Assembly: GCA_905221605.1 (NCBI GenBank)
Contig: CAJNDS010000458.1
Span: 772,136-836,135, forward strand
Source: Symbiodinium natans
Lineage: Eukaryota > Sar > Dinophyceae > Suessiales > Symbiodiniaceae
Reading direction: 5' to 3'
Length of the DNA stretch: 64,000 bases
Shown: positions 23 to 61,229 of the stretch, one piece after another
Layout: each line of letters begins with the position of its first letter
Position numbering within the stretch: position 1 is the stretch's first letter
Notes under the pieces: generated by a model
Database searches by the model: none
What the model was told of the DNA's origin: nothing
The model's input: the letters and a program-made list of their open reading frames with translations, nothing else
Made by a program: the position numbers and the translations under genes

Positions 23-3000
23 ACAAGGTTTCCATGGCAGACACTCTGCAACGGAGTTCAGATGCACATGTCGAACCTGAAGCTACGAGCCTTAGGCTGG
101 CATCTCACTGCATCTTCGTAGCTGAATCAGTACACTTTATACACTTACTCTATATACACTTATTTTGGGGTACTATTTATCCCTTATAGAATTGAAAGTG
201 TACACTTTTGGGGGGGGGGGGGGGGCTTATGAACTCAGCAACTTTAAGGCATGGTGGTGCCACGTCTTCTTGGGCATGTCGGTCATTCTCCTCGTCTCGA
301 CGGGAGCTGCGCAGTATCTTTGGCTACTTGAGCAGGAGCATCTGGTGGTGCAGCTGCCTCGGTCGATGATGGACCGGTTCAAGCTCTGCTACTCTGTCGG
401 CCTGTTCTTGTTCTCCGCAGTTCTTCTGGCGCAGTTCTGCGGATTCGGCTGCGCCGCACGCATGGCCTGCGGTTCTGTGGCCGCTGACGAAACGATGAGG
501 GTGGCAGCTTCCTGTCTCTGCGCCAACGCGGTGCTGACGGTTCTTGGGCCCTGCTTGAGCTTGTACGCACTCAAGATGCTTAGGGATACTTGGAAGTATT
601 GTTCTTACAGCTCAGTATAGGATACCTTTCTCTTATTGGGTTTAAGAGGATCATATGTGTAGGAGTATTTTTTCAGAGGGTTCTTTTAAGGGGCCATCCG
701 AGGATGTTCAGGGAGGACATCCTCATTGTCACCGTCGACACTTCCTTCCAGCTCTTAAACGTCCTTCTTCTCTCTGGGCTCGTCGGCCCGCCGCAGTTTG
801 CACTGTCCATGGCAGCGTTCCTATGGCCCCCTTAGGAATTACTTTGCATTTTGGGTTTCTAACCCTAAGCCCAAACCCTTCAACCCCTAAACCCTAAACC
901 CTAAACCCTAAACCCTAAACCCAATTTTTTAAAGGTTCTAGAAGGGGAGTATTAATAGGTTCCGGAAGCTGGCGGACCTCTCGGGCTTTGGCCTCGCCGC
1001 GAGGCGCATTGCCTTTCCCGGGCGGGTGAACGCCGGAGCCAGCGACTGCATCGTGTCACTCGGTAGGGTTTAGGGTTTAGGGTTTAGGGTTTAGGGTTTA
1101 GGGTTTAGGGTTTAGGGTTTAGGGTTTAGGGTTTAGGGTTTAGGGTTTAGGGTGTAGGGTTTAGGGTTTAGGGTTTAGGATTTAGGGTTTAGGGTTTAGG
1201 GTTTAGGGTTTAGGGTTTAGGGGGACATCTTGCATTTTCCCTTATTGGGTTTTAAGAGGATCATATTCAGGAATATGGTTTGTAAGGGAACCTATATCTA
1301 AACATGTTCTAGGTTTAATTGGTTTAAGAGGATCACATGTCTAGGAATCTTTTTCGGAGGGTTTTAAGGGCCGTCCTAGGTCATTTCCGGGCAAGTATAG
1401 CACACTCTGGGATGAAGCAGTCTCCATCGCTATGGCGCGCGAGACCTGCTCGCTGGCCTGCGTCTTTCTGACGGACCGCACGTCGGGTCTGGGCCACTTG
1501 GTATCCCAGTGGTACCCTTTACCCTGTTTTTTTTTTTTTTGGTTATGGGTGCCCTTATAAAGTAACCACCCGAAAAAAAGTGTCCCTATTTTAATGTGGT
1601 TACTGTGCTACTAAGGCCAGCATGCTGAGAACCCAGACACGCCGGGGCAGTGCTGGTGCCATGCGATCTATGGCACCCTGCCCGCGTCCACGTATCTGAG
1701 CGTGATCGAGTTGGTTCATGAAGAGCATGACACCCCTGAGAGCCAGCAAGCTCGGCAGCACATGCTCGCCTTCAAGAGGGCCGATGCAGAGGCGATGGGG
1801 CAGGTGTTGGTGATTCTTAGTAGCCGAGTGAGTACACTTTACACTTTTTGGGATGCTATAATCTCTGCAAAACCAAAAGTGTACACTTTTTTTGGATACT
1901 ATAATCTCTACAAAACTAAAAAGTGTACACTTTTTTTGGGGGCTTATGAACTCCGCAGCCCTAAACCCTAAACCCTAAACCCTAAACCCTAAACCCTAAA
2001 CCCTTGTTTGGGGGCTTGTGAACTCAGCAACGAAGGATTAAGCGTGACCAGGGCGAGTTGGAGTGGCGAAGGGAGCTGGCCGAAGCGCTGAGCATGGCGG
2101 AAGCGCGGTGTCTGCAAAACCATGCAAGAGCTCCCTGGGGATGCAGGTGGGGGTTTGGGGTTTAGGTTTAGGGTTTAGGGTTTAGGGTTTAGGGTTTAGG
2201 GTTTAGGGTTTAGGGTTTAGGGTTTAGGGTTTAGGGTTTAGGGTTTAGGGTTTAGGGGTTGGGGATGCCCTTGGACCACAATAAGGTACCCCCTAATTTA
2301 ACAAAGCCCCCAGGTGGTTCGAGGAGTGGCGGAAGCACGTGCACAAGGCAGCGCAGCTCCGGCAAACTTTGCATGTCTTCTACTTCGAAGGCCGGCAAGG
2401 TGACTGGGTCATTGTTGAGAATCATGTTACACTTTTCTGAATACTTAACCCCAATAAGGAACAAAAATGATCATGTTGAATAGGCCCTAAACCCTAAACC
2501 CTAACCCCTAACCCCTAAACCCTAAACCCTAAACCCTAAACCCTGAACCCTGAACCCTGAACCCTGAACCCTGAACATCAACCCCAAGAATGGTGCAGGC
2601 GAAGGCAAGGTCTCCTGGAAGGACCTGTGCGATGATGGCGTCAAGGAGAGTAGTCCCTAAACCCTAAACCCTAAACCCTAAACCCTAAACCCTAAACCCT
2701 AAACCCTAAACCCTAAACCCTAAACCCTAAACCCTAAACCCTAAACCCTAAACCCTAAACCCTAAACCCTAAACCCTAAACCCTAAACCCTAACCCTAAA
2801 CCCTAAACCCGAAATCGTCAAGGAGAGGGTGAGACCGATGAGTGGCCTGGGTGCCTCACAGACGGCGGAAGTGGCCTACCTGGAGAAGATGCTCGGCTTT
2901 TGTTTGCTTGTTGGGGTTTAGGGTTTAGGGTTTAGGGCTTAGGGTTTAGGGTTTAGGGTTTAGGGTTTAGGGTTTAGGGCATTTAGAGGGTTTTAAGGGG

Positions 3001-3513
3001 CAGTCCTAGTTTTGCAAAGGGTCTAAAGGCCTACCTGGAGAAGATGCTCGGCTGGCGTTTGTTGGGAGAATTGCTTGTTTGGTTTTTTCTTAGTTTGGGT
3101 TTAGGGTTTAGGGTTTAGGGTTTAGGGTTTAGGGTTTAGGGTTTCGGGTTTAGGGTTTAGGGTTTAGGGTTTAGGGTTGACCCTATCTCCAAATGGGTTC
3201 TAGGTAAGGTTTTGGCATATTCGATATTCTCCCTTATCGGGTTTAAGGGGATTATGTTCAGGAATAGCTTTCAGAGGGGTTCTAAAGGGCCATCCTAGTT
3301 TTTTTTTTTTTCAAGGGTTGTTCAGGCTTTTTTGGGATATTTTTTGGGGGGTTTTGTAACGGACCCTGTATCTCGATATGTTCAACCGGGTTTAAAGGAC
3401 AAACCGAGGATGGGCCTGAGCTACGTGGAGCATGACATCAAGGACTTCGAGGCACTCGTCCAGGCACCGCTGAAAAAGGAGCCTCCTGGCCATGCAGCTT
3501 TGCGGAGGCTAGG
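23..3513 (+). CDS. Multi-exon gene, multi-pass membrane protein of unknown function (5' end possibly outside window)
   Basis: Unrecognised protein rebuilt from exons that stay in one frame once introns are removed: about 23-113, 249-578, 703-820, 963-1062, 1390-1496, 1620-1815, 2040-2150, 2318-2413, 2575-2650, 2828-2897, then about 3411-3513. In-frame ATGs lie at 62 and 68, but the frame is open back to 23, so an upstream exon is possible. The N-terminal half has about four hydrophobic segments, such as the VFLGMSVILLVSTGAA stretch near 270. The C-terminal half is soluble, with a Cys/His-rich patch (QCWCHAIYG) near 1655, paired Trp-rich stretches (LEWRRELAEAL, RWFEEWRKH) and an ending VEHDIKDFEALVQAP. 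Three introns are TIR elements with 4-bp duplications, and at least three hold telomere-like arrays between direct repeats of exon sequence. Frame continuity across roughly ten junctions makes a real gene likely. The function is unknown, and the last junction and the 3' end are uncertain. Confidence 0.7.
114..248 (+). mobile_element. Family 1 TIR introner with 4-bp GCAT duplication
   Basis: The left end CTTCGTAGCTGA and the right end CTCAGCAACTTTAAG are imperfect inverted repeats. GCAT lies on both sides (110-113 and 249-252). Removing the element and one GCAT joins the open frames so that ..HLTA runs into WWCHVF... A G run of about 20 lies inside at 211-225. Confidence 0.75.
587..702 (+). 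mobile_element. Family 6 intron sequence (TTGGGTTTAAGAGGATCA type)
   Basis: This intron carries the TTATTGGGTTTAAGAGGATC motif, found again at 1231-1380, 3230-3300 and 59098-59150. It is bounded by the near-identical 12-mers GATGCTTAGGGA (575-586) and GATGTTCAGGGA (703-714). Splicing between them keeps the frame (..LYALKM then FREDIL..). No clear terminal inverted repeats are seen. Confidence 0.55.
1064..1223 (+). repeat. (TTTAGGG)n telomere-like array in intron
   Basis: About 22 head-to-tail TTTAGGG copies with only two or three variants (one GTGTAGGG, one TTTAGGA). The array starts directly at the exon end CACTCGG, so the exon/repeat border is immediate. Confidence 0.9.
1231..1385 (+). mobile_element. 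Two adjoining family 6 copies
   Basis: Two diverged copies of the TTGGTTTAAGAGGATCA unit lie in tandem (about 1240 and 1318) in the intron before the exon starting near 1390. They end with the family's TTTTAAGGGCCGTCCTAG tail. Confidence 0.5.
1497..1615 (+). mobile_element. Family 2 TIR introner with GCCA duplication
   Basis: The ends are CTTGGTATCCCAGTGG and ACTGTGCTACTAAG (inverted), flanked by GCCA at 1493-1496 and 1616-1619. Clean removal joins ..TSGLG to QHAENPDTPG.. in frame. A run of T lies near 1527. It shares internal GGGTGCCCTTATAA-type sequence with other family 2 copies. Confidence 0.75.
1816..2035 (+). mobile_element. Family 1 TIR introner (GATT duplication) holding a telomere-like array
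   Basis: The left end is CTTAGTAGCCGAGTGAG, the right end ACTCAGCAACGAAG. GATT flanks it at 1812-1815 and 2036-2039. Removal gives ..MGQVLVI then KRDQGELEWRR.. in one frame. The internal AAAGTGTACACTTTTTTTGG unit is doubled, and a (CCCTAAA)6 tract (1961-2003) interrupts the right part, leaving a second short copy of the right arm. The telomere-like tract therefore appears to have arrived after the element. Confidence 0.8.
2154..2258 (+). repeat. (TTTAGGG)n array in intron bounded by CAGGTGG direct repeats
   Basis: About 14 TTTAGGG copies fill most of the intron 2151-2310. The exon heptamer CAGGTGG occurs at both borders (2144-2150 and 2311-2317). Joining at the repeat keeps the frame (..APWGCRW then FEEWRKH..). 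Confidence 0.85.
2484..2573 (-). repeat. (CCCTAAA)n grading into (CCCTGAA)n
   Basis: C-rich strand array. The last five units are all CCCTGAA, so a variant unit has spread locally. It precedes the exon at about 2575-2650. Confidence 0.85.
2654..2815 (-). repeat. Nearly pure telomere-like intron between 12-bp exon duplications
   Basis: About 22 CCCTAAA units with one CCCTAA slip make up almost the whole intron. CGTCAAGGAGAG occurs at 2639-2650 and 2816-2827. Using either copy keeps the frame (..CDDGVKER then VRPMSG..). This is the cleanest case of a telomere-like tract acting as an intron. Confidence 0.9.
2899..3027 (+). repeat. Telomere-like intron between perfect 26-bp exon duplications
   Basis: The 26-bp exon segment at 2873-2898 (coding AYLEKMLG) is repeated without change at 3028-3053. 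Between them lie (TTTAGGG)n at 2915-2976 and the tail of a family 6 unit (TTTTAAGGGGCAGTCCTAG). Confidence 0.85.
3097..3404 (+). repeat. (TTTAGGG)n followed by family 6 sequence
   Basis: A telomere-like array at 3097-3177 with one TTTCGGG unit is followed by one or two diverged family 6 units (TTATCGGGTTTAAGGGGATT at about 3234). Together they form the proposed last intron of the first gene. Confidence 0.6.
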
Positions 3514-3519
3514 GGTTTA

Positions 3520-3727
3520 GGGGTTTATAGGGTTGATAGGGTTTATACGGCTTATAGGGTTTATAGGGTTTATAGGGTTTATAGGGTTTATAGGGTTTAT
3601 AGGGTTTATAGGGTTTATAGGGTTTATAGGGTTTATAGGGTTTATAGGGTTTATAGGGTTTATAGGGCTTATAGGGTTTATAGGGTTTATAGGGTTTATA
3701 GGGTGTATAGGGTTTATAGGGTTCAAG
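3520..3727 (+). repeat. (TTTATAGGG)n nonamer array
   Basis: About 22 copies of the 9-bp unit TTTATAGGG, the telomere-like heptamer expanded by TA, with occasional CTTATAGGG or TGTATAGGG. Repetitive open frames on both strands (IGF and NPI repeats) are by-products. It directly follows the last exon of the first gene. Confidence 0.9.
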
Positions 3728-18056: not shown

Positions 18057-18154
18057 CCTAAGACCCCAAACCCTCAACCACCTCCTGTTCCTTATAGAAG
18101 CCCTAAACCCCTGCCCGAAAACCTCAAACCCTAAATTCTTACTGGAGCTCACTC

Positions 18155-18258
18155 CCTAAACCCTAAACCCTAAACCCTAAACCCTAAACCCTAAACCCTA
18201 AACCCTAAACCCTAAACCCTAAACCCTAAACCCTAAACCCTAAACCTAAACTCCAAAG
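18155..18258 (-). repeat. Telomere-like array between 18-bp direct repeats
   Basis: (CCCTAAA)n of about 13 units. TCTTACTGGAGCTCACTC (18137-18154) and TCTTGCTGGAGCTCACTC (18259-18276) border it and differ at one base. It resembles the exon-bordered arrays of the first gene, though coding here is unproven. Confidence 0.85.
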
Positions 18259-19036
18259 TCTTGCTGGAGCTCACTCACCCAACCTTTTGAGCCACAACGG
18301 CTTCCAAGCTGACCTTCTTGTGAGCCTTGGCCCCTTCTAGGGCCGTTTCGGGTTTAGGGTTTAGGGTTTAGGGTTTAGGGTTTTAGGGTGTTAGGATAAA
18401 CCCCTTAAGCCCTTCTACCCCCCTCCAAAGCCAACCCCCTAAACCCCCAAACCCCCCCAAAGCCCCAAACCCTAAAGCCCTTAGCCCGCTCCGAAGCCCT
18501 CCGAAATCCCACACCTAGCACTCAGGGGGTTTAAACGTTTAGGGTTTCGGGTTTAGGGTTTAGTGTTTAGTTTAGGTCAGGTGCTTAAACCTGGAGACTC
18601 TCTCAACCCAAAATGCTTCATTTCTCCTCTGTGGAAATGTCGCGCAGGTGCCTTCCGCTGCCATGGTCGGACCCCAGGACGCGGAGGGCTCTCGGTTTAG
18701 GGTTTATGGTTTAGGGCTTAGGGCTTCGGGTTAAGGGTTTAGGGGTTCAAGGCTTTAGGGGTTTAAATGCAAAGAGGGTTTGTATAAGAAGCCTCTTTGC
18801 TTCAGTTTCTTGCTTAAGGGGTTCAAAGTTTTAGGGATTCAAAATACCATCATAAACCTTAAACCCTCTTGTAGGGGGTTGAGGAGGTTTGCATCTACAG
18901 GGCATGTGGGGGCATTATGAGTGTTGGGAGGAGTCAAGGGCCCTTTAGGGCGTTAGGGTTCAGGGTTCAATGCCGCTCCAAGAGCCTGAACCCTGGTCCT
19001 TCCGATGACAAGGCCTCCCTCCTGAAGTAGACAGTT

Positions 19037-24514: not shown

Positions 24515-24683
24515 GGACCCTAACACCCTAAAACCCCTAAAAACCCTAAAAACCCTAAGACCCTAAAAACCCTAAAAACCCCTAAAAACCCTAAAACCCC
24601 TAAAAACCCTAAAAACCCCCAAAACCCTAAAGACCCTAGAAACCCGAAAAAACCCTCAAAACCCTAAAACCCTAAAACCCTGA
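24515..24683 (-). repeat. (CCCTAAAAA)n / (CCCTAAAA)n expanded-A array
   Basis: Telomere-like unit with four or five A rather than three. About 80 bp further on lies a G-strand array of the same longer unit, TTTTAGGG (24760-24920). The two tracts may be related halves of an inverted duplication. Confidence 0.85.
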
Positions 24684-28988: not shown

Positions 28989-31480
28989 CCAAGGCGCTAG
29001 GAACCGGAGCAATGTGACGACTTAGGAATGCTTGGCACTTGGGAATTTCGGGGTTTGGGGCTTGGGGTTAGGGTTCTATCTTTGGGCACTGTAGCTTGGG
29101 ATGTTCCCCCTTATGCTAATAGTCCTGAATAGGGGTTAAAAGTACGGGGCACTATAATTCCTATTAAGAACTGTTAGTATAAGCGGGGAACATCCCCACC
29201 TTCCAAGGAAACAGCTTGAAACACAATTTTTGCTAGGGTTCCAAGTTCAGGATAGATGAGGGGTGTCTTTTTGGGCTGAGGGTTTGTCATGTGGGATTTT
29301 CCTAAATCTAAAACCCTAAACCCTAAACCCTAAACCCTAAACTCAAGGCCTAGGCCGCCCCCCTACAGTTGGGGGGCGGCGCCTAAGCCCCTCGACCTCG
29401 ACGCAAGCCGACCCAGGTCGTTCGCCCGCCTCCCACAGCTGGGAGGTCGGTAGCACCCACGATGGGCCGGTACCGGAGCACGTTCTCCTCGGCACCGCTT
29501 TTCTGGCCCCCTAACCCCCTGCCCCCATCCCGGCCTGACCCCTTGCCGCCCACCTGGCCGCCCCCCTTACCCCCTCTCGGCCCTGACCACACGCCGGCCG
29601 GGGCCTCTTTATTACCTTCGAGACCTTGCTGGCACCCTTGACTCTCGGATTCAGCCAACATCATGAAACTGACTAAGTTTTGAAAAGTGGACTGTTGTCT
29701 GAGTTTAGGCCTAAACCCTAAAAGGAATAGGTTTGGGTGGCTTTGCCGCCTTGGACGGCGTGGGGTGGGAGAAAAGTGTTAGATGGCCCTCCACAATCGG
29801 GTCAAAGCTGCTCTTCGGCATCTCACGAAGCTTTCGAGCTTATTCCTAAACCTAGCCTTCACAGCATCTACGCCCTATAAACCCTAAACCCTAAACCTTA
29901 AACCCTAAACCCTGAACCCTGAACCCTAAACCTTAAACCCGAAACCCTAAACCCTAAACCCTAAACCCTAAACCCTAAACCCTAAACCCTAAAACCCTAA
30001 AACCCTAAACCCTAAAACCCTAAACCCTATACCCTAAGTGGTGGCCAGGGCCGGTTGAACAGTGGAAACTCTAAACCCTATAAACCCTAAACCCTATGAG
30101 CACTAAAACCGTATAAACACTAAGCCCTAAACGCTGAAAAAAACCCAAATCCTAGCTAGCGCCTTTTGCTTTTGGGTTTAGGGTTTAGGGTTTAGGGTTT
30201 AGGGTGTAGGGTGTAGGGTGTAGGGTGTATAGGGTGTAGGGTTTAGGCTTAGCAGGAACTTCCGGTCTCAACCTTGCACGCCCTACATCTCGTAAACCCT
30301 ACAGCCGTAAAACCCAGGCCCTTCTCCCTTCGGTTGAGGCTGCAGAAAGGGTACCCTTTTTCGTTCTCCTAGGTGACTCATAGAACATTACGCCTATGCC
30401 CTACGCCCTGAACCCGAAACCCCACAACCCTAAACCAAAGAACAGAGTGCAGGGAATAAGGCTTGTTAGGGTTTCAGGTTTAGGGTTTAGGGTTTAGGAT
30501 TGAGGGTTTTGGGTTTAGGGTACTGGTTTAGGGTTTAGGGTTTAGGGTTTAGGGTTTAGGGTTTAGGGTTTAGGGTTTAGGGTTTAGGGTTTTAGTGTTT
30601 AGGCATCCTAAGCCCCTACCGAAGCTCCCGACACTTCCGCTGCAGGCAGCCGAAGTTTGCGAGCGCTTCGCGTGGCTCGGAGCTGTGTGAGGGCTGCACC
30701 TCCCGCTAGTACGAGTACCCACACTCTTGAAAGAAAGAGGGTTTAGGGGTTCAGGGTTTAGGGTTTAGGGTTTGGGGTTTGGGGTTTAGGGATTAAGGCT
30801 TCTTAGTAGCTGAGTGAGCACACTTTACACTTTTTGGGATACTCGAATCTTCTTTAGAACTGAAAGTGTACACGTTTCGGGGCCTTATGAACTCAGCAAC
30901 TAAGGTTTAATGAGGGCTTAGCAGTATACCATCGCAATACTAACAACGGATGAGTAGCATACAAAGCACAATCCAATAGTAAAAGAACATTAGCAATAAC
31001 AACGACAGCAACATTAATTACAACAGCAACACTGATAATGACAGTCATAACAACACGAAGAACGGCAAAATACATTCTAACAACAACAATAAGAACAACA
31101 GTAATAATAACAGCAATAATAAGATCAATACCACCAATAGTGATGCTAGTAATCATAATCATGCTATTACTAACAATAAGCATATGTATAAGAATACTAA
31201 TACCGTCTTTCGATTGAAAAGTTTGGTGTTCAGGGACGGGATGGCTGTAGAGCTTCACGTCTTTGTGAGTTGTATTGTAGCCAAGAGATGAGCTTGAAAT
31301 TCTTGTGGTTTAGGGTTTAGGTTTTGGGGTTTAAGGTTTGGGGTTTGGGGTTTAGGGTTTAGGGTTTAGGGACCCTAGACCCCAAAGCTCCAAACCCCTA
31401 CCCCCCCCCCCCCCTCCCAGGCAGAGCACCTATCCGGCCATCCGGGGGTTCCGCCAGGGGCGCGTGATGACCTTCAACAG
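25980..31480 (+). CDS. Thioredoxin-fold (PDI-like) protein, dispersed exons
   Basis: Three exons carry thioredoxin hallmarks. 25980-26087 reads EAVVYFHLPSCQPCRETLPA with a CxxC (CQPC) active-site motif. 30646-30671 reads AAEVCERFA. 31421-31480 reads QSTYPAIRGFRQGRVMTFN, including the conserved cis-Pro neighbourhood (TYPAI). The last two join exactly in frame across a GT-AG intron (30672-31420). In this fold the CxxC exon lies N-terminal to the VCERF..YP part, matching the order here. Exon-like pieces between (27961-28045; 28198-28261, ALDCVAHSPKVFPDEKVAAL) may fill the gap, but I cannot prove their junctions. The expected role is disulfide exchange, and localisation is unknown because the N-terminus is not identified. 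Confidence 0.45.
28947..28982 (+). repeat. Poly-G tract of about 34
   Basis: Unbroken G run. Confidence 0.95.
29095..29198 (+). mobile_element. Family 4 TIR element nested in a family 9 element
   Basis: CTTGGGATGTTCCCCCTTAT and GGGGAACATCCCC ends. It interrupts family 9 sequence, whose left part (CTTGGGAATTTC, about 29038) and right part (TTGCTAGGGTTCCAAGTTC, ending about 29255) lie outside it. Confidence 0.6.
29345..29700. other. GC-rich stretch with C-rich hairpin; coding rejected
   Basis: A strong inverted repeat (CGCCCCCC..TTGGGGGGCG) at 29355-29378 is followed by about 280 bp of GC-rich DNA. A 93-codon minus-strand frame here is Gly/Arg-rich and low complexity, so I do not call it a gene. 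Confidence 0.4.
29880..30030 (-). repeat. (CCCTAAA)n array with CCCTGAA, CCTTAAA and CCCTAAAA variants
   Basis: About 20 mixed units, older-looking than the pure arrays. Confidence 0.85.
30802..30904 (+). mobile_element. Family 1 TIR element
   Basis: CTTAGTAGCTGAGTGAGCAC at the left and ACTCAGCAACTAAG at the right. The flanks are GCTT and GTTT, an imperfect duplication. It lies inside the proposed GT-AG intron of the thioredoxin-like gene. Confidence 0.65.
30905..31220. repeat. AT-rich (AAC/AAT)n trinucleotide-like tract
   Basis: About 300 bp of AACAACAATAA-type low-complexity DNA with no G-rich telomere unit. A similar tract lies at 33830-33985. The long minus-strand frame (30893-31258) is a product of this composition. 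Confidence 0.7.
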
Positions 31481-34392: not shown

Positions 34393-36315
34393 CAGTCCAA
34401 GAAAACCCCCTCCTGGAGGGTCCCGAGCTTCTTGCTGCTCCTCTCGGAGTCCGCGGAACAGGAGTCCGTGCGGCTCTGGGAGGACTCCCGGAGTGGCAAT
34501 GTTTAGGGTTTAGGGTTTAGGGTTTTGGGTTTTGGGTTTAGGGTTTAGGGCTTAGGGTTTAGGGTTTAGGGTTTAGGGTTTAGGGTTAGGGCTTAGGGCT
34601 TAGGGCCTAGGGCTTAGGGCTTAGGGTTTAGGGGTATGGCGCGGTTGAGGGTCTTTTTTCGGGTTCGTTGCAAGTTTCTTTCGGCAGTTGGGAGCTTTTT
34701 GGTTTTTTAAGGGTTGTTTGAGGTTTTGTTCGTTTTTGTTTTTTGTGTTTAGGGTTTGAGGGTTTTGTTTTTTTTTGGGGGGGGAGAGTTTAGAGGCTCT
34801 AGGGGTTTAGGCAGATTGCCGGAACCCAAGTGAGTCCGATGCATTTGGAAGTGTGGTCTTTTTCTGTCCTAAGCCCTAAACCCTGAATCGGTGTAGAGAT
34901 TTGTGGGGGGTTGTAGGCTTCTAGGTCTAAGCTTCATGGAAGGACTTACTTTGGGTTTGGGTTCCTGATCCCTACAATATTAAGGGGTATTGAAGGGGTG
35001 CCCTAGGGCCCATACTAAGGGACCGAGTGGATGGATGGAGGATTTGTTCAAAGGACGAGTCCATCGGCCGCAAGGCCGAACCACCTGAGGATGCCCAGGC
35101 GGTGGCATTGGCCAGAGATGGCTTGAAGCCTCTTCGCGGAACGGAGGCCTTTGATACAACATCAGAGCTGGACCTACTGGAGTGGGAATCCAACACTTGC
35201 CCGAGCTTGGGTTACAAGTACGGGAGCAAGAAAGGAGATCCTGGTGTCTTCGCCGCGGCGAAAGCCACGACGAATGCGATTCTTATGCAGTACATCGAAG
35301 CTAGCAACAAGCGAGACTTCCTTCGCAGAAGAGTCACTCCGGATATCGTATACAGCAGGACGCAAATGTCCCAGCTGAGCAACCCGAAGGTACGAGCAGT
35401 ACACGGTCGTTGTTTTCATCTCTTCGGGGGGTTTGCCTTTTTGGGGGTTGGTTTTTGGGGGTTGGGAGGGGGGGGCTGCATCGGTCTCTTTCGGTCTGTT
35501 CCAGGGTTGTGGTTTCGGGGCTGCTTGTCGGCTTCTTGTCGGGGTTGGTGTAGGGTTTGCAGGGCAGCCGCGTTCCGGAGGCCCAGGGTTTTTCTCCCAC
35601 ACGTGGTTTTTCCCTGGCCTGGTGCTTGGCTCAAGTCTAGCAGAGCAAGTTCAACTGGGACCATGCTAAGGGCCCTACAAACCCCATATAAAACCTATAC
35701 ACTATCCTAAGAGTAGCGCTGCACTTTGAGGAGCTTGCCATAGACAGCATCGAGCGGCTCAACTTTTACCTGGCCGTGCATTCACAAGGCCGTTTTGGAG
35801 GGCTTAGGGTTTAGGGCTTAGGTCTTCGGGCTTAGGGTTTAGGGTTTCGGGTTTAGGGATTAGGGTCTAGGGTCTAGGGTTCAGGGTGTAGGGCTGAGGC
35901 AAGCCTTCTTGGAGTTTACACGGGCATTCCTGAACCCACGGGCCTGTCGGATCTGGGTGTGCTGGGGGGTGCTTTGGGGTTTCGGGTTTAAGGGGTTAGG
36001 GTTTAGAGTTTCGGGTCTCCGATCTCCTTGTTTCCTTGTCCGTGTCACACAAAAGGGCCCCAAAGAAAGCCGCCGGCTACCTCCACCTAACCCCACCGAA
36101 GTAGGGCCCTTTTGTCTCTATGACAGTACACCCTGTTTAGTTTATAAGTCCTCTCCCGCTCCAAATCCTAAAACGCCCGCTGTTTTGAAGATTCTCAATG
36201 CCTCCCGAAGCCAGTGGTGGAGGCGTCTGGGATTTCCTGCCGGGAAAGCCGCCCTCCGTCCACATGTCTGGGCACGAGGCGGCGCCCAAAGAACTCCCCG
36301 TTGCGCTGGCTGAGG
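34393..36315 (+). CDS. Multi-exon gene with one long exon, unknown protein
   Basis: Candidate exons: 34393-34499 after a CTTTCAG acceptor (QSKKTPSWRVPSFLLLLSES and on); about 35020-35389, the longest unbroken exon before the RCC1-like gene (CSKDESIGRKAEPPEDAQAV, later ILMQYIEASNKRDFLRRR, SRTQMSQLSNPK); 35717-35802 (ALHFEELAIDSIERLNFYLA, VHSQGRFGG); about 36196-36315 (PPEASGGGVWDFLPGKPPS). The long exon ends at AAG|GTACGAG and continues in frame at GTAG|CGCTG. No domain is recognised. The upstream and downstream pieces are assigned by strand and order only. Confidence 0.5.
34501..34632 (+). repeat. (TTTAGGG)n array with CTTAGGG and TTTTGGG variants
   Basis: About 18 units. CTTAGGG variants cluster at the right end. 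Confidence 0.85.
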
Positions 36316-53300: not shown

Positions 53301-55700
53301 GGCCTGGAGGGGGAGTTGTAGATCACAAAGCCGGGCTTAGATGTTGTGTAGGAAATCCCTAAACCCTAAACCCTAAACCCTAATGATTCACAGCACAGGC
53401 AATTCACCGGCCCGATCGGCGATCCCCACGTCTTCACCTTGGACGGTGACAGGTTCGACGTGTATGAGAACGGCACCTTCTCACTCTTCCAGTACTCCGG
53501 GCAGAAGATTGCGCACCCATCTACAGCATCCGAGGTGGACTGGCACCTTTACGTTCTGAACCCTGAACTCCCTAAACTCCCTAAACTCCCTAAACCCCCT
53601 AAACTCCCTAAACCCCCTAAACCCCCTAAACTCCCTAAACCCTCAGGTGGATTGGCACCTTTACGCCCACTATGGCGGGCCGTGGTGGACGACTCAATCC
53701 GTGCTGCTGGTTGATCGCTCCATGGGCCGTTTCCGTCAAGCCCTGGAGTTGACTGCCAAGGACCCCCTGGTTCTTAGTAGGGAATGAGGGAAATTAGGGC
53801 CCCATACCCTTTACCCTAAACCCTAAACCCTAAACCCTAAACCCTAAACCCTAAACCCTAAACCCTAAACCCTAAACCCTAAACCCTAAACCCTAAACCC
53901 TAAACCCTAAACCCTAGCCTGTAAGGTTTTATATAGGGTACCCCATTCCCCCATTCCCTACTGAGAACCAGCCAGAGGACTGCCAGTGGCGCAGCAGGAC
54001 GGGAGAGAACGGAGATGCTTGGCAGTCCATTCGACCTAATGGTTGTTGTATGTGGCTTAGGGTTTAGGGTTTAGGGTTTAGGGTTTAGGGTTTAGGGTTT
54101 AGGGTTTAGGGTAACCTCTCACATCTTGAGAGGGGCTATGATAAAGTGACTTCTTTTGCAAGTGATTGTAGTTATAGGGCCATGCTAAGGATTGGGTGGA
54201 GATCTCTAAACCGAGCACGCTCTCCTTGCTTGAGGGTGAGGAGCACGTCAGCAGCTTCGAGTTTTCCGACCCAACGAACCTTGTCCTCCGGATGAAGACC
54301 GAGAAGGGACTGAAGGACACCTTGGCCCTTCGCACGATCTGCAAGCGTGGGGTGATCAACATGCGCGTCAACCTGCCGAATGTGGCCGAGCGAAGGTTCC
54401 TGAAAGGCCAGATCGAAGTGGGCAACGCGCAGAAGCAGGAGATGTATGCAACAAGCCACCAGGATGCCCAGTGGTACCCTTATTCCCTTTTGTGGGGGGG
54501 TTTAGGTTCCCCTTATCAACACCCCTAAGCAAAACAAGGGCACTTTTTTTTCATCCTAGGCTACTGGGCAACCTAGGCCAGGACTGGAAAGCCCTGGGTG
54601 GGAGCACGATGGCATCAGAGTTCTTGCAGCACCTTGAGAAGAAGATGTTCCTGCAGACCTCGTGCACGGGGGCAGTGAAGAAGACGCTTGCTTGCCAAGA
54701 GGCGAAGCCCTCAACCCCCCCGTCAACCCCCCCCCCCCAACCCTTCAACACCTAAACGGCCCCTAGCTCCCCAGATCCAGAATCTCTAGTCCCTAATCTT
54801 AGCGTTTAGGGTTTAGGGTGTAGGGTTTGGGGTTTAGGGTTTAGGGTTTAGGGTTACAGCAACTCCTTAAACCCCTGAACCTCTAAACCCCTGAACCTTA
54901 AACCCCAAATCCCCACCCTCAGCGAACTCCGAGAGGGCATCCACCGTGCGGCTCTGAAATTTCAAATTCGCAAGCACTATAAAGCCCCAAACATATATTT
55001 ATATAGGGTTTAGGTTTTTTTGGGGTTTCGGTTGTTTTCTAGGGTTTGGGTTTTTGTAGGGTTTGAGTTTTTTAGTTTTTTTCTTGGCTAAGGGCTTAGG
55101 GTTTTGTAGGGGGGCTCAAACCCTAAACCCTAAACCCTAACCCCTTGCAATGCCCCAAAAGGTGAGATCCCAGTATAGGAAAATGCCAGTTGCAGTGTGC
55201 ATGAACGGTACCTGTGACAGTTCGTGATGACCAAAAAAGTCCTGGGAGTTGCGAATCCTTCCGGGTTCGGGGCCTAGGGTTTATATAAGGTTTAGGGTTT
55301 ATAGGGTATAGGTTTAGGGTTGAGAGCGTCTTCCTACTTGAAACCCACGTGGCAGCTGCAGCTGCAGCCTAGGAATGCTGAGCAGATTTGTGCAAAGCAT
55401 TTGGGCGAGCACATGCGCGATGCCGACGGCACGGATGCACAGATCTTCGCCGACTGCGTCACAGACGTCTGCAGAGGACTGATTCTTATTTTTTGACTCC
55501 GCTGATTTGTTCTCTTGATCCTTATATATTTTATGTTTTTTGACCCTTATTGTATTTGTTGATCCTTATTTAATTTGCTTGGATTTAGATCCTTATTCGT
55601 ATTTTCGACCCTTATTTAAACTGTTGTTTTGGATCCGTTACCCTGCAGAGGAGGGGAAGACTTTGCCGCGGTCACGGCTGAGCTTCTGTCCGAGGCCTGA
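50321..55700 (+). CDS. Secreted protein with von Willebrand type D-like region, about 15 exons
   Basis: ATG 50321 starts a signal peptide (MLRWLLACVLPLAVVGGS). Exons: 50321-50407, 50533-50688, 50926-51026, 51542-51582, 51724-51840, 52029-52139, 52509-52649, 52787-52867, 53398-53553, 53666-53763, 53972-54033, 54188-54458, 54581-54707, 55373-55478, 55653-55700 (TGA). Early part: NVLNFESFNHGDEIKP. Later: GPIGDPHVFTLDGDRF and GTFSLFQYSG, the GDPH start of a VWD domain, then Cys-containing stretches (ADGTDAQIFADCVTDVCRGG) like the C8-type part that follows VWD. TIR introners with 4-bp duplications account for the 50408, 51583 and 54459 introns. An intron with 21-bp direct repeats (53533/53645) and another with CTGCAGAGGA (55469/55643) also keep frame. 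In the exon near 50926-51026 the frame seems to shift (LVLDTNGRTIDK reads in another phase), so a boundary or base there is wrong or the copy is damaged. Likely extracellular or cell-surface. Partners unknown. Confidence 0.7.
50408..50528 (+). mobile_element. Family 2 TIR introner with GCTC duplication
   Basis: CTAGGATGCCCAGTAGTGCC and GGTTACTGCGCAGCCTAG ends. GCTC lies at 50404-50407 and 50529-50532. Removal joins ..SDASCML to QAHRSSEAHPG.. in frame. Confidence 0.8.
51111..51264 (+). mobile_element. TIR element with 23-bp ends (ACAGGGTTCTTAAGGG)
   Basis: ACAGGGTTCTTAAGGGAGGG at the left is the inverse of TTCCCTTAAGAACCCTGT at the right, with one extra base. It lies in an intron of the VWD-like gene. 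Confidence 0.65.
51583..51719 (+). mobile_element. Family 1 TIR introner with GCTA duplication
   Basis: CTTAGTAGCTGACTGAG and GCTCAGCAACGAAG ends. GCTA lies at 51579-51582 and 51720-51723. Removal joins ..GQGADNCY to FMVWSKDGNT.. in frame. A short telomere-like insert lies at 51656-51688. Confidence 0.8.
51859..51990 (-). repeat. (CCCTAAA)n array
   Basis: About 18 units with two CCCCAAA variants, within an intron. Confidence 0.9.
52650..52786 (+). mobile_element. Family 5 element as intron
   Basis: GGTTCTCAGCAGGGAGTGAG at the left and CTTCCCTACTATAAGAAGCA at the right are diverged family 5 ends. Removal joins ..AQDAKGPP to EGAIMNLDTGG.. in frame. The element seems to have an internal duplicate of the TACCTCATTCCCT arm. 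Confidence 0.6.
53554..53644 (-). repeat. CCCTAAACT-type tract between 21-bp exon duplications
   Basis: CTCCCTAAA and CCCCCTAAA nonamer-like units lie between a 21-bp exon segment (53533-53553, coding VDWHLY) and its copy (53645-53665), which differs at one base. The reading continues VDWHLY-AHYGGPWWTTQS. Confidence 0.85.
53767..53971 (+). mobile_element. Family 5 TIR introner with telomere-like array inside
   Basis: CTGGTTCTTAGTAGGGAATG and ATTCCCTACTGAGAACCAG are near-perfect inverted ends. (CCCTAAA)n of about 14 units fills 53815-53915. The exon continues ..LELTAKD then PEDCQWRSR... Confidence 0.75.
54058..54112 (+). repeat. (TTTAGGG)n array in intron
   Basis: About 8 uniform heptamers. 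Confidence 0.9.
54459..54576 (+). mobile_element. Family 2 TIR introner with GCCA duplication
   Basis: CCAGGATGCCCAGTGGTACC and GGCTACTGGGCAACCTAG ends. GCCA lies at 54455-54458 and 54577-54580. Removal joins ..QEMYATS to QDWKALGGST.. in frame. Confidence 0.8.
55479..55652 (+). other. T-rich intron with 10-bp direct-repeat borders
   Basis: CTGCAGAGGA at 55469-55478 and 55643-55652. Between them is a tandem-like (GATCCTTATTT)n T-rich sequence. Joining gives ..DCVTDVCRG then GEDFAAVTAELL... Confidence 0.7.
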
Positions 55701-59049: not shown

Positions 59050-61229
59050 ATGTCGATCACGATCGAAGTGAACCTTATAAGTGGCTGGGTAGGCCCTTGG
59101 GACATTTTAAGATTTTCCCTTATTGGGGTTTAAGAGGGTCATATTTTAGGAGCACACGTTACTCTTTTTGGGATACTAGAACCCCCCACTAGAACTGGTT
59201 CAGCAACTAACCCAGAGGGTCCATTTGTAGTACTACTATGGAATTAGGTACCCCAAAAACCCTATTTAGTATGGTTTTTGGGTACCTAATTCCATAATGG
59301 TAATACAAATGGACCCTAAACCCTAAACCCTAAACCCTAAACCCTAAACCCTAAACCCTAAACCCTAAACCCTAAACCCTAAACCCTAAACCCTAAACCC
59401 TAAACCCTAAACGGTAAGGTGGCAAGAGCGTGAAGTTGCAAACGGAGCCGTCAGAGTCCATCGACGTGCTGAGCCAACGAGCGCAGCATGCATTGGCCGT
59501 CGGCAAAGGAAGCTAAGGGGTAGAAGGAGGGTTTAGGGTTTAGGGTTTAGGGTTAGGGTTTAGGGTTTAGGGTTTAGGGGGGATGCTTCATCTTATCCCC
59601 CTATATATAACCCATCTTTTTTACCCCGATATATAATAACGTATGGAGTCCCTACATACCTCAGAAGCTCCTCAATACCCCCTAAGGTCCCTTGTAAGGT
59701 TAAACCCTAAACCCTAAACCCTAAACCCTAAACCCCCCTTGAGTCCCTTGAGGAAGGCTGCTGTCCTCCTCTGGCGATGTACTGGATGGAAGAGGAAGCG
59801 TGGAAGGAGCTGGGTTGACGACTGGTGATGCGCTGACCTTTCACCTGAGGACAGTTCAGGTCTTCGTAGCTGAGTGAGTACACTTTAAAAGACGTTTTTG
59901 GGATACGATAATCCCCTCTAGAACTGAAAGTGTACACTTCTTTGGCACCCTTATGAACTCGGCAACTAAGAGGTGATCGCCACTCAGAAGCATGAGTTCG
60001 GAAACGTGGCCGCCTTCGCGGCGATCCTGGGCGACGGATCTGTGGCGGCCTGGGGCGATGCTGCACTTGGTGGCGACTGCAGCGAGGTGCAAGACCAGCT
60101 CAAGAACGTCCAGCACATCCAAGCCTCCGAAGCTGCTTTTGCAGCAATCCGAAGTGATGGATCGGTTGTGGCTTGGGGGGATCCTGAGAGTGGGGGCGAT
60201 GCCAGCAGTGTGCAAGAGGAGCTCAAGAATGTAAGGGATCTGCAGGCTTCTGAGTGCGCTTTTGCTGCCATCCGCGAGGATGGGTCGGTGGTGACCTGGG
60301 GCAATGTCGACGGTGGGGGCGACTCCAGCACCGTGGATCTCAGGAACGTGAGGCACATCCAAGCCACGAGGCGCGCCTTTGCCGCCATCCGGGAGGATGG
60401 CTCGGCAGCAGTCTGGGGTGACGACGCGTTTGGGGGCGACTGCAGTGCCGTGGAAGGTCGGCTGAAGAACGTGCAGCGCATCCAAGCGTCGGTCTTCGCT
60501 TTTGCTGCGATCTGTGAGGGCGGATCTGTGGCGGCCTGGGGTGATCCCGAAGTTGGTGGCGACTGCAGTTACGTGCAAGACCAGCTCCAGAATGTTCGGG
60601 ACATCCAAGCTACTGAGTCTGCTTTTGCTGCAATCCGTGAGGATGGATCGGTGGTGACCTGGGGATACCCTGAATGCGGGGGCGACTGCAGCGCTGTCAA
60701 AGACCAGCTCAAGAACGTCCTGCGCATCCAAGCCTCCGGGCACGCCTTCGCTGCAATCCGTCAGGATGGGTCGGTGGTGACTTGGGGCCACGCTGACAGC
60801 GGGGCCGATTGCACCGCCGTGCAAGATCAGCTGAAGAGCGTGAAGCGCATCCAGCGTTGCGGAGAGGCCTTCGCCGCCCTAAGAAGCGATGGCTCTGTGG
60901 TGACCTGGGGCGATCCGGGCAGCGGGGGCAACAGCAGCGCCGTGCAAGATCAGCTCCGAGGTGTTTCAGACATCCAAGCTTCGGTCTCCTCCTTCGCTGC
61001 GATCTTAAAAGATGGGTCGGTGGTGACCTGGGGCAGCCAATCCTGTGGGGGTGACAGCAGCGATGTTGAGCTGAAGGATGTGAGGCACATCGCAGCCTCT
61101 GAAGGCGCATTTGCCGCGATTCTGGGGGATGGATCTGTGACGGTCTGGGGTGACCCGGACCTTGGTGGTGACGGCAGCAGTCTGTGCCAGAGAGCTGAGC
61201 CATCAAGCCCCGAAATCCTGACCCCTTAA
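59050..61229 (+). CDS. Ubiquitin-like domain plus RCC1-like repeat protein
   Basis: Four exons: 59050-59085 (MSITIEVNLISG), 59424-59512, 59757-59861 and 59975-61229 (TAA), about 490 residues. Residues 1 to about 75 resemble a ubiquitin-like fold: a beta start (ITIEVNLISGKSVKL), a helix (IDVLSQRAQHALAVGKG), then RLLSSSGDVLDGRGSVEGAG and DALTFHLRTVQV. Then come ten units of about 40 residues of the form AFAAIREDGSVVTWGDP..GGDSSAVQDQLKNVRHIQAS, related to RCC1-type blades (regulator of chromosome condensation/HERC). This architecture is, to my knowledge, frequent in Symbiodinium gene models. Its biochemical role is not established, and names such as E3 ligase HERC come from the repeats alone. 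Introns: a composite of families 6, 1 and 3 plus a telomere-like array (59086-59423); a TTTAGGG/AT-rich one (59513-59756); and a TIR introner (59862-59970) that restores ..LRTVQ-VIATQKHEF. All four exons share a frame. Confidence 0.85.
59098..59208 (+). mobile_element. Composite of truncated family 6 and family 1 sequence
   Basis: The TTCCCTTATTGGGGTTTAAG unit (59114) is followed by family 1 internal sequence and right end (TTTTTGGGATACTAGAAC ... TTCAGCAACTAA). Confidence 0.55.
59211..59316 (+). mobile_element. Family 3 TIR element running into telomere-like array
   Basis: Left end CCCAGAGGGTCCATTTGTAG. The right end is cut at GGACCC, where it continues directly as CCCTAAA repeats. The shared CCC suggests that the telomere-like tract began within the element's end. 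Confidence 0.7.
59314..59411 (-). repeat. (CCCTAAA)n array of 14 units
   Basis: Pure heptamers between the family 3 element and exon 2 of the RCC1-like gene. Confidence 0.9.
59862..59970 (+). mobile_element. Family 1 TIR introner with AGGT duplication
   Basis: CTTCGTAGCTGAGTGAG and ACTCGGCAACTAAG ends. AGGT lies at 59858-59861 and 59971-59974. Removal restores the frame at the junction between the ubiquitin-like and RCC1-like parts. Confidence 0.85.

Follow-up and report, generated by a model that had tools for sequence, protein, structure and literature searches.

The origin of introns has long been an unsolved question, and for many recently gained introns no source sequence can be named. 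The locus described here raises this question for a telomere repeat. The window, i.e., the whole stretch of 64,000 nucleotides of DNA that was analysed, lies on contig C458 of the 759-Mb genome of Symbiodinium natans, which is related to coral-dwelling algae, and the coding sequence of its gene 1 is interrupted by an array of the unit CCCTAAA with the same exon bases on both sides. How did such a tract come to lie within coding sequence, and is it removed as an intron? The initial annotation of this DNA had described about 22 CCCTAAA units and little else, bounded by a 12-bp exon duplication, and both parts of this description were confirmed. TRF gave a period of 7, 23.0 copies and 98% matches for the array, in which 21 units are exact CCCTAAA, and only the letters TAGT on one side and one T (position 2815) on the other separate it from the two copies of CGTCAAGGAGAG, which are the only exact copies of this stretch on the + strand of the window (Table 1). 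The borders of the focal intron read AAG|GA...AAG|G and were fixed by the AG|G rule; splice points slid anywhere within the 12-bp repeat give the identical mRNA.

Table 1. Positions in the window of gene 1, the focal intron with its parts, the neighbouring introns and the array intron of gene 2.
Feature	Position	Strand	Basis or detail
Gene 1, readable part	35-3480	+	Spliced alignment; residues from 180 of homologue P0001 onward
Gene 1 exons near the focal intron	2036-2146, 2314-2399, 2599-2645, 2823-2887, 3409-3480	+	Spliced alignment
Neighbouring intron, TTTAGGG array (60%), 7-bp border repeat CAGGTGG	2147-2313	+	Homology
Neighbouring intron, CCCTAAA array, 3-nt border repeat	2400-2598	+	Homology
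Duplicated exon stretch, copy 1, CGTCAAGGAGAG	2639-2650	+	Exon end CGTCAAG and intron start GAGAG
Focal intron, 177 nt, GA-AG, phase 0	2646-2822	+	Spliced alignment to P0001 and P0003
Filler TAGT, from copy 1 to array	2651-2654	+	Sequence
CCCTAAA array, 23 units	2655-2814	+	TRF; G-free from 2654 to 2810
Duplicated exon stretch, copy 2, CGTCAAGGAGAG	2816-2827	+	Intron end CGTCAAG and exon start GAGAG
Neighbouring intron, two TTTAGGG arrays and second copy of a 26-bp exon-end/intron-start stretch	2888-3408	+	Homology
Gene 2 duplication, copy 1, AGGTGGACTGGCACCTTTACG	53533-53553	+	Array-flank scan
Gene 2 array intron, 112 nt, GT-AG	53535-53646	+	Border hand-set from EVDW/KVDW of homologues; aligner start 53526
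Gene 2 duplication, copy 2, AGGTGGATTGGCACCTTTACG, 1 mismatch	53645-53665	+	Single copy in C1945 paralogue

The evidence for removal of the array came from protein homology. A purpose-written spliced aligner, in which GT, GC or GA donors were permitted, aligned gene 1 to P0001 with 289 identities in 440 aligned residues and without stop or frameshift, the short pieces around 575-715 and everything beyond 3480 being doubtful. The joined protein found 140 homologues, and among the 120 listed all those with an organism name belong to Symbiodiniaceae. The junction VK|ER was gapless within 8 residues in 107 of 111 alignments to the listed homologues. Both CCCTAAA and TTTAGGG arrays carry stops in all three frames, so the focal array is non-coding; the conserved frame is interrupted by the focal intron and restored on its removal, and the borders are of the dinoflagellate type (GA-AG|G). 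The homology indicates that the focal array is removed as a spliceosomal intron of 177 nt, which supports the earlier proposals that the array is spliced out and that splicing at the duplicate keeps the frame. Among 69 introns the donors were GC in 28, GA in 23, GT in 17 and TC in 1, with AGG at 63 acceptors, although these counts are no independent measure as the aligner favours such sites. GC and GA donors are described as normal in Symbiodiniaceae (PMC11453091, PMC8045281).

The introns next to the focal one also contain telomere arrays. For the intron preceding it, another border picked to suit a short repeat was rejected, and the homologues place this intron as given in Table 1. Downstream, an exact 26-bp repeat made of exon end and intron start (2873-2898 and 3028-3053) encloses an array at 2914-2993, so that two donor choices would yield one mRNA; the idea that its two copies form the two borders of one intron was discarded because homology places the second copy inside a longer intron.

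If the tract was gained, related genes should exist in which the site is uninterrupted, and such sites were found in paralogues only (C2368, C824, C1929 and C1945). The homologue P0003 matches contig C824 at 100% over residues 1-556, and across its residues 585-605, which hold the focal junction, 31 of 83 genome matches run unbroken, a count that omits two nominally unbroken C824 matches whose DNA shows an intron there. In the uninterrupted paralogue on C2368 the DNA reads GATCAAGTCAAGGAAAGAGTGCGG, with the stretch present once, and it translates to a sequence identical to P0001 in the 43 residues compared. This is the closest uninterrupted paralogue read as DNA, and it is a distant empty site because P0001 is only 61% identical to the protein of gene 1. 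An unrelated intron at the focal site, looked for among the paralogues, was not seen at that site: the C824 and C1857 genes have introns 6 nt upstream of the aligned focal position (as do L028, L029 and L045), with no telomere units in the C824 genes and 7 in the C1857 gene. Introns lying 6 nt apart in paralogues suggest separate gains close together. The proposed gain with target duplication is supported by the uninterrupted C2368 gene and by three further array introns that have uninterrupted paralogues.

The first of these three, on C1857 (L030 866-970), is 105 nt long with GC-AG borders, and its array of 12 units stands between two exact copies of the 12-bp stretch ATGCAGCAGGCC; in the C824 paralogue TATGCAGCGGGCAGA occurs a single time, within an uninterrupted exon. 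Only two of the 69 introns, this one and the focal one, exceed 60% telomere repeat; both reach 88% and both carry exact 12-bp duplications. The second, at 34537-34684 on the minus strand of C1929, has 148 nt and a degenerate TTTAGGG array, and the duplication AAGGAYGACCAGCCRCAGATGGAATG measures 26 bp with 2 mismatches. The same contig carries two tandem sister genes (L036 and L059) with the uninterrupted site; where the sequences align, L036 has 84% DNA identity, and what it lacks is precisely the insert together with one repeat copy. Both changes are in the intronic copy, whereas the exonic one matches the empty sites, a pattern that constraint on the exonic copy would produce; this is the cleanest case. 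The third, in gene 2, has a 21-bp duplication with 1 mismatch, and the C1945 paralogue is uninterrupted; a C601 paralogue has an unrelated intron just upstream of the site. Its start was moved from 53526 to 53535 because the homologues keep E/KVDW, and the border repeat score is 3 with the border of the aligner and 18.5 with the hand-set one. All four duplications have AG|G at the splice point (CGTCAAG|GAGAG, ATGCAGCAG|GCC, AG|GTGGAY and AAG|GAYGACC), and introns built in this way occur on contigs that are not linked, in genes whose reading frames are intact.

Of 83 introns (53 and 30) called from family members and gene 2, the comparison of border repeats kept 69, a small sample, in which at least 3 of 10 residues on each side were identical; the other 14 fell below this and were dropped. 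The paralogue loci were hand-picked from the P0003 matches, multi-exon ones first, and are no random sample. Introns with 15% telomere repeat or more were counted as array-bearing (24 of 69), the remaining 45 having little or no array. In the first 44 introns the exact border repeats of the focal and C1857 introns were the longest (12 bp), the other 42 running from 0 to 10, and the 12 bp of the focal intron exceed the background of these other introns. A mismatch-tolerant border score of at least 11 was reached by 3 of 24 array-bearing introns (4 of 24 with gene 2 hand-set) as compared to 0 of 45 others (Fisher p 0.039 or, with the hand-set border, 0.012), this threshold having been picked after the data were seen, with the focal intron given beforehand, the gene 2 case first spotted in a scan for such repeats and some introns common to paralogues. 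None of 2821 mispaired intron borders reached 11, and the maximum exact repeat in 1892 pairs was 10. At a threshold of 10 the difference (3/24 vs 1/45) was not significant (Fisher p 0.12), and a rank test gave p 0.028. A long border repeat is absent in 20 or 21 of the 24 array-bearing introns, and many arrays probably entered pre-existing introns or are old. In many array-free introns a border repeat of 4-5 nt begins at the G of AG|G, and the intron at 55477-55650 has a 10-bp border repeat, CTGCAGAGGA, yet no telomere repeat. Short border repeats are therefore general in this genome, and a background of this kind is cautioned against for Drosophila in the work cited here (PMC3443670).

The flanks of the arrays were also compared. 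Among 361 arrays, with locus L023 left out, 6 (the focal one among them) had flanking repeats that scored at least 12 and whose two copies both lay within 20 nt. The same held for 2 of 1737 places matched in length and free of tandem repeats, and for none of 1801 mispaired array flanks. Over search spans of 25 to 80 nt and without a filter against tandem repeats, random places equalled or exceeded arrays in long repeats at most thresholds; once the filter was applied, still without a distance limit, arrays showed a small excess. Taken alone, these flank statistics are weak, and a clear excess emerges only when both copies lie within 20 nt. Elsewhere in the window, a 21-bp repeat with 2 mismatches (18133-18153 and 18255-18275) directly adjoins a 98-bp CCCTAAA array.

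The supply of such tracts in this genome is large. TTTAGGG is described as the dinoflagellate telomere unit (PMC11453091), and the focal array is a tract of this unit inside a chromosome. The window holds 153 telomere arrays of 28 bp or more. Genome-wide, (CCCTAAA)3 occurs 1,184,385 and 1,185,204 times on the two strands, and its reversed control 33 and 41 times. Scaling from sampled stretches gave 58.5-61.1 Mb of telomere repeat, about 8% of the genome, in 1.06-1.07 million arrays, and direct measurement in 140 kb of scattered stretches gave 5.9%. Telomere arrays make up roughly 6-8% of the S. natans assembly, on both strands alike, and a single genome with some 60 Mb of dispersed telomere repeat is remarkable on that count alone; the main text of the genome paper (PMC8045281) has no occurrence of telomer or TTTAGGG. 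In sense orientation 13 of the array-bearing introns are C-rich and 11 G-rich, so that selection for one orientation, which was considered, finds no bias to support it over these introns. Among the four introns with long duplications, three have the C-rich strand in sense, which offers no competing splice sites because it has no G. Arrays of longer variant units, GGGTTTATA and ACCCTAAAA, lie at 3513-3723 and 24517-24681 and suggest a later change of telomere arrays.

Other repeated sequences occupy introns as well. An introner-like element with the conserved 3' end GCTTATGAACTCAGCAAC.AAG|G was seen in the window at 110-248, at 1812-2035 and near 30879 and 51694, and in L030 at 86-207. A second element, GGGTTTAAGAGGATCA...GGCCATCCTAG with close variants, was seen at about 638-702, 1248-1379 and 3239-3300. 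Inside one copy of the first element (1938-2030) sits an array (1959-2004), with the GGGGGCTTATGAACTC.GCA stretch of the element on both sides with few mismatches, as if duplicated; this is an example of the arrays that probably entered a pre-existing intron or are old. The intron at L030 2034-2374 has two telomere arrays and, by eye, a copy of both adjoining exon ends between them, which would fit a tandem duplication of an exon-array-exon unit. At 59970-61229 the window also contains one uninterrupted reading frame of 419 aa that encodes RCC1 repeats (Pfam RCC1_2), and a search of the window against Rfam at gathering scores gave no match.

On this evidence we consider, with a probability of roughly two in three, that the focal intron is a young spliceosomal intron made of a telomere tract inserted at a staggered break. 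The duplications point to such a break, in which the exon would have been cut with its ends staggered by 12 bases. Repair would then have placed telomere repeats at the break, telomerase acting on a 3' end being the most likely agent; the focal array has its G-rich strand on the minus side, as extension of the right-hand end would leave it, and telomerase activity is documented in dinoflagellates by the work cited here (PMC11508785). Fill-in and joining may have left the 12 bases that are now present on both sides. The duplicated AAG|GA would have supplied donor and acceptor together, because in dinoflagellates a donor may be GT, GC or GA and the acceptor is AG, as a rule with a G after it, and excision of one copy with the array would restore the exon, a step that the protein homology supports. 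Other exons of the genome appear to have gone the same way, as in the three further cases. A wider reading is that S. natans is a telomere-driven intron factory, in which gene breaks are filled with telomere repeats and a sizeable share of introns so began or grew, perhaps until today; a scar would become a silent intron at once because dinoflagellate splicing needs little beyond AG|G at both ends. We hold this wider reading tentatively and give it somewhat less than an even chance.

The source of the tract could be different. Telomeric RNA may have been reverse-transcribed into the site, by LINE-type target priming or as an RNA patch at a break, with a target duplication of variable length, and the later steps from the duplication to both splice sites would be unchanged. 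The duplications of 12, 12, 21 and 26 bp fit such a route, as LINE target duplications include lengths of 12 to 26 bp, and the presence of arrays in both orientations fits it too. Retroposition is reported as common in this group (PMC8045281), and retrotranscribed telomeric RNA is named as an alternative for interstitial telomeres in PMC7215372. Inspection by eye, however, showed no evident nick motif common to the four duplicated stretches, and neither a tail nor any other RNA-derived sequence turned up; we regard this route as unlikely. The differing lengths of the duplications suggest that staggered breaks or target-primed reverse transcription are likelier than one transposase. It is very unlikely that a mobile introner element that happens to bear telomere repeats was inserted by a transposase, even though introners are known in dinoflagellates (PMC11453091, PMC7789003) and repeated intron elements are present in the window: by eye the focal and C1857 introns have only telomere units in common and no shared non-telomeric ends, and the long duplications (12 to 26 bp over the four cases) differ from the 3-5 nt direct repeats of introners reported for Amoebophrya (PMC7789003).

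Growth in place was weighed as well. A tandem duplication of a short exon stretch may have come first, with a telomere-like seed that lay between the two copies then growing by slippage; that arrays go on changing once they exist is shown by variant units and higher-order arrays elsewhere in the window. The focal array, however, is nearly perfect, by eye none of the four duplicated stretches holds a seed, and one-step insertion instead of slippage is what PMC7215372 presents for primates, which makes slippage highly improbable. That the array is unspliced, the gene dead or the assembly wrong at the focal site is hardly credible, since even with gene 1 running off the readable sequence on the left and an assembly described as a hybrid of short and long reads (PMC8045281), the spliced gene has no stops or frameshifts and the same build stands on unlinked contigs with intact frames.

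Insertion of a telomere tract at a staggered break remains the reading we prefer for the focal intron. The observation itself is confirmed and the intron gain is supported by comparison of paralogous sequences; the combination is surprising and a variant of known processes. In the S. natans cases both the source (a telomere repeat) and the mark of entry (an exon copy of 12-26 bp) are plain, and sister genes without the insert are present in the same genome. If true, this would tie break repair with chromosome-end repeats to the making of gene structure, and would show how an insert with stops in every frame is tolerated in coding sequence. Full-length transcripts exist for S. natans strain CCMP2548 according to the genome paper (PMC8045281).

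A telomere repeat that is itself the intron was a combination not found in the literature, among the matches listed, and each of its parts resembles a known system. As compared to the dinoflagellate introners treated in PMC11453091 and PMC7789003, which are likewise intron-creating insertions with direct repeats at the borders, the array introns of S. natans have longer duplications and nothing in common beyond the telomere unit. The AGGT proto-splice-site model, as set out in PMC3443670, also lets a duplicated AG|G target yield donor and acceptor so that removal restores the exon, but its insert is a transposon or an exon copy, whereas in S. natans it is a telomere tract; GA and GC donors serve besides GT, and the donors of dinoflagellates make the scheme easier. 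Short interstitial telomeric sequences of mammals (primates, rodents and horse) are alike in that a tract at one locus is cleanly absent from the related one (PMC7215372). In the horse loci of that report telomere repeats enter breaks, with target duplication at 3 of 66 loci, like that of the S. natans introns, and with deletions commoner; its human loci, as presented there, include no case in a coding exon, whereas the S. natans tract interrupts exons and serves as an intron. The staggered-break introns of Daphnia described in PMC4202315 share with those of S. natans the direct repeat of exon bases at opposite intron ends, and their repeats measure 4-12 bp, whereas in S. natans repeats of 12-26 bp enclose a filling of telomere units.
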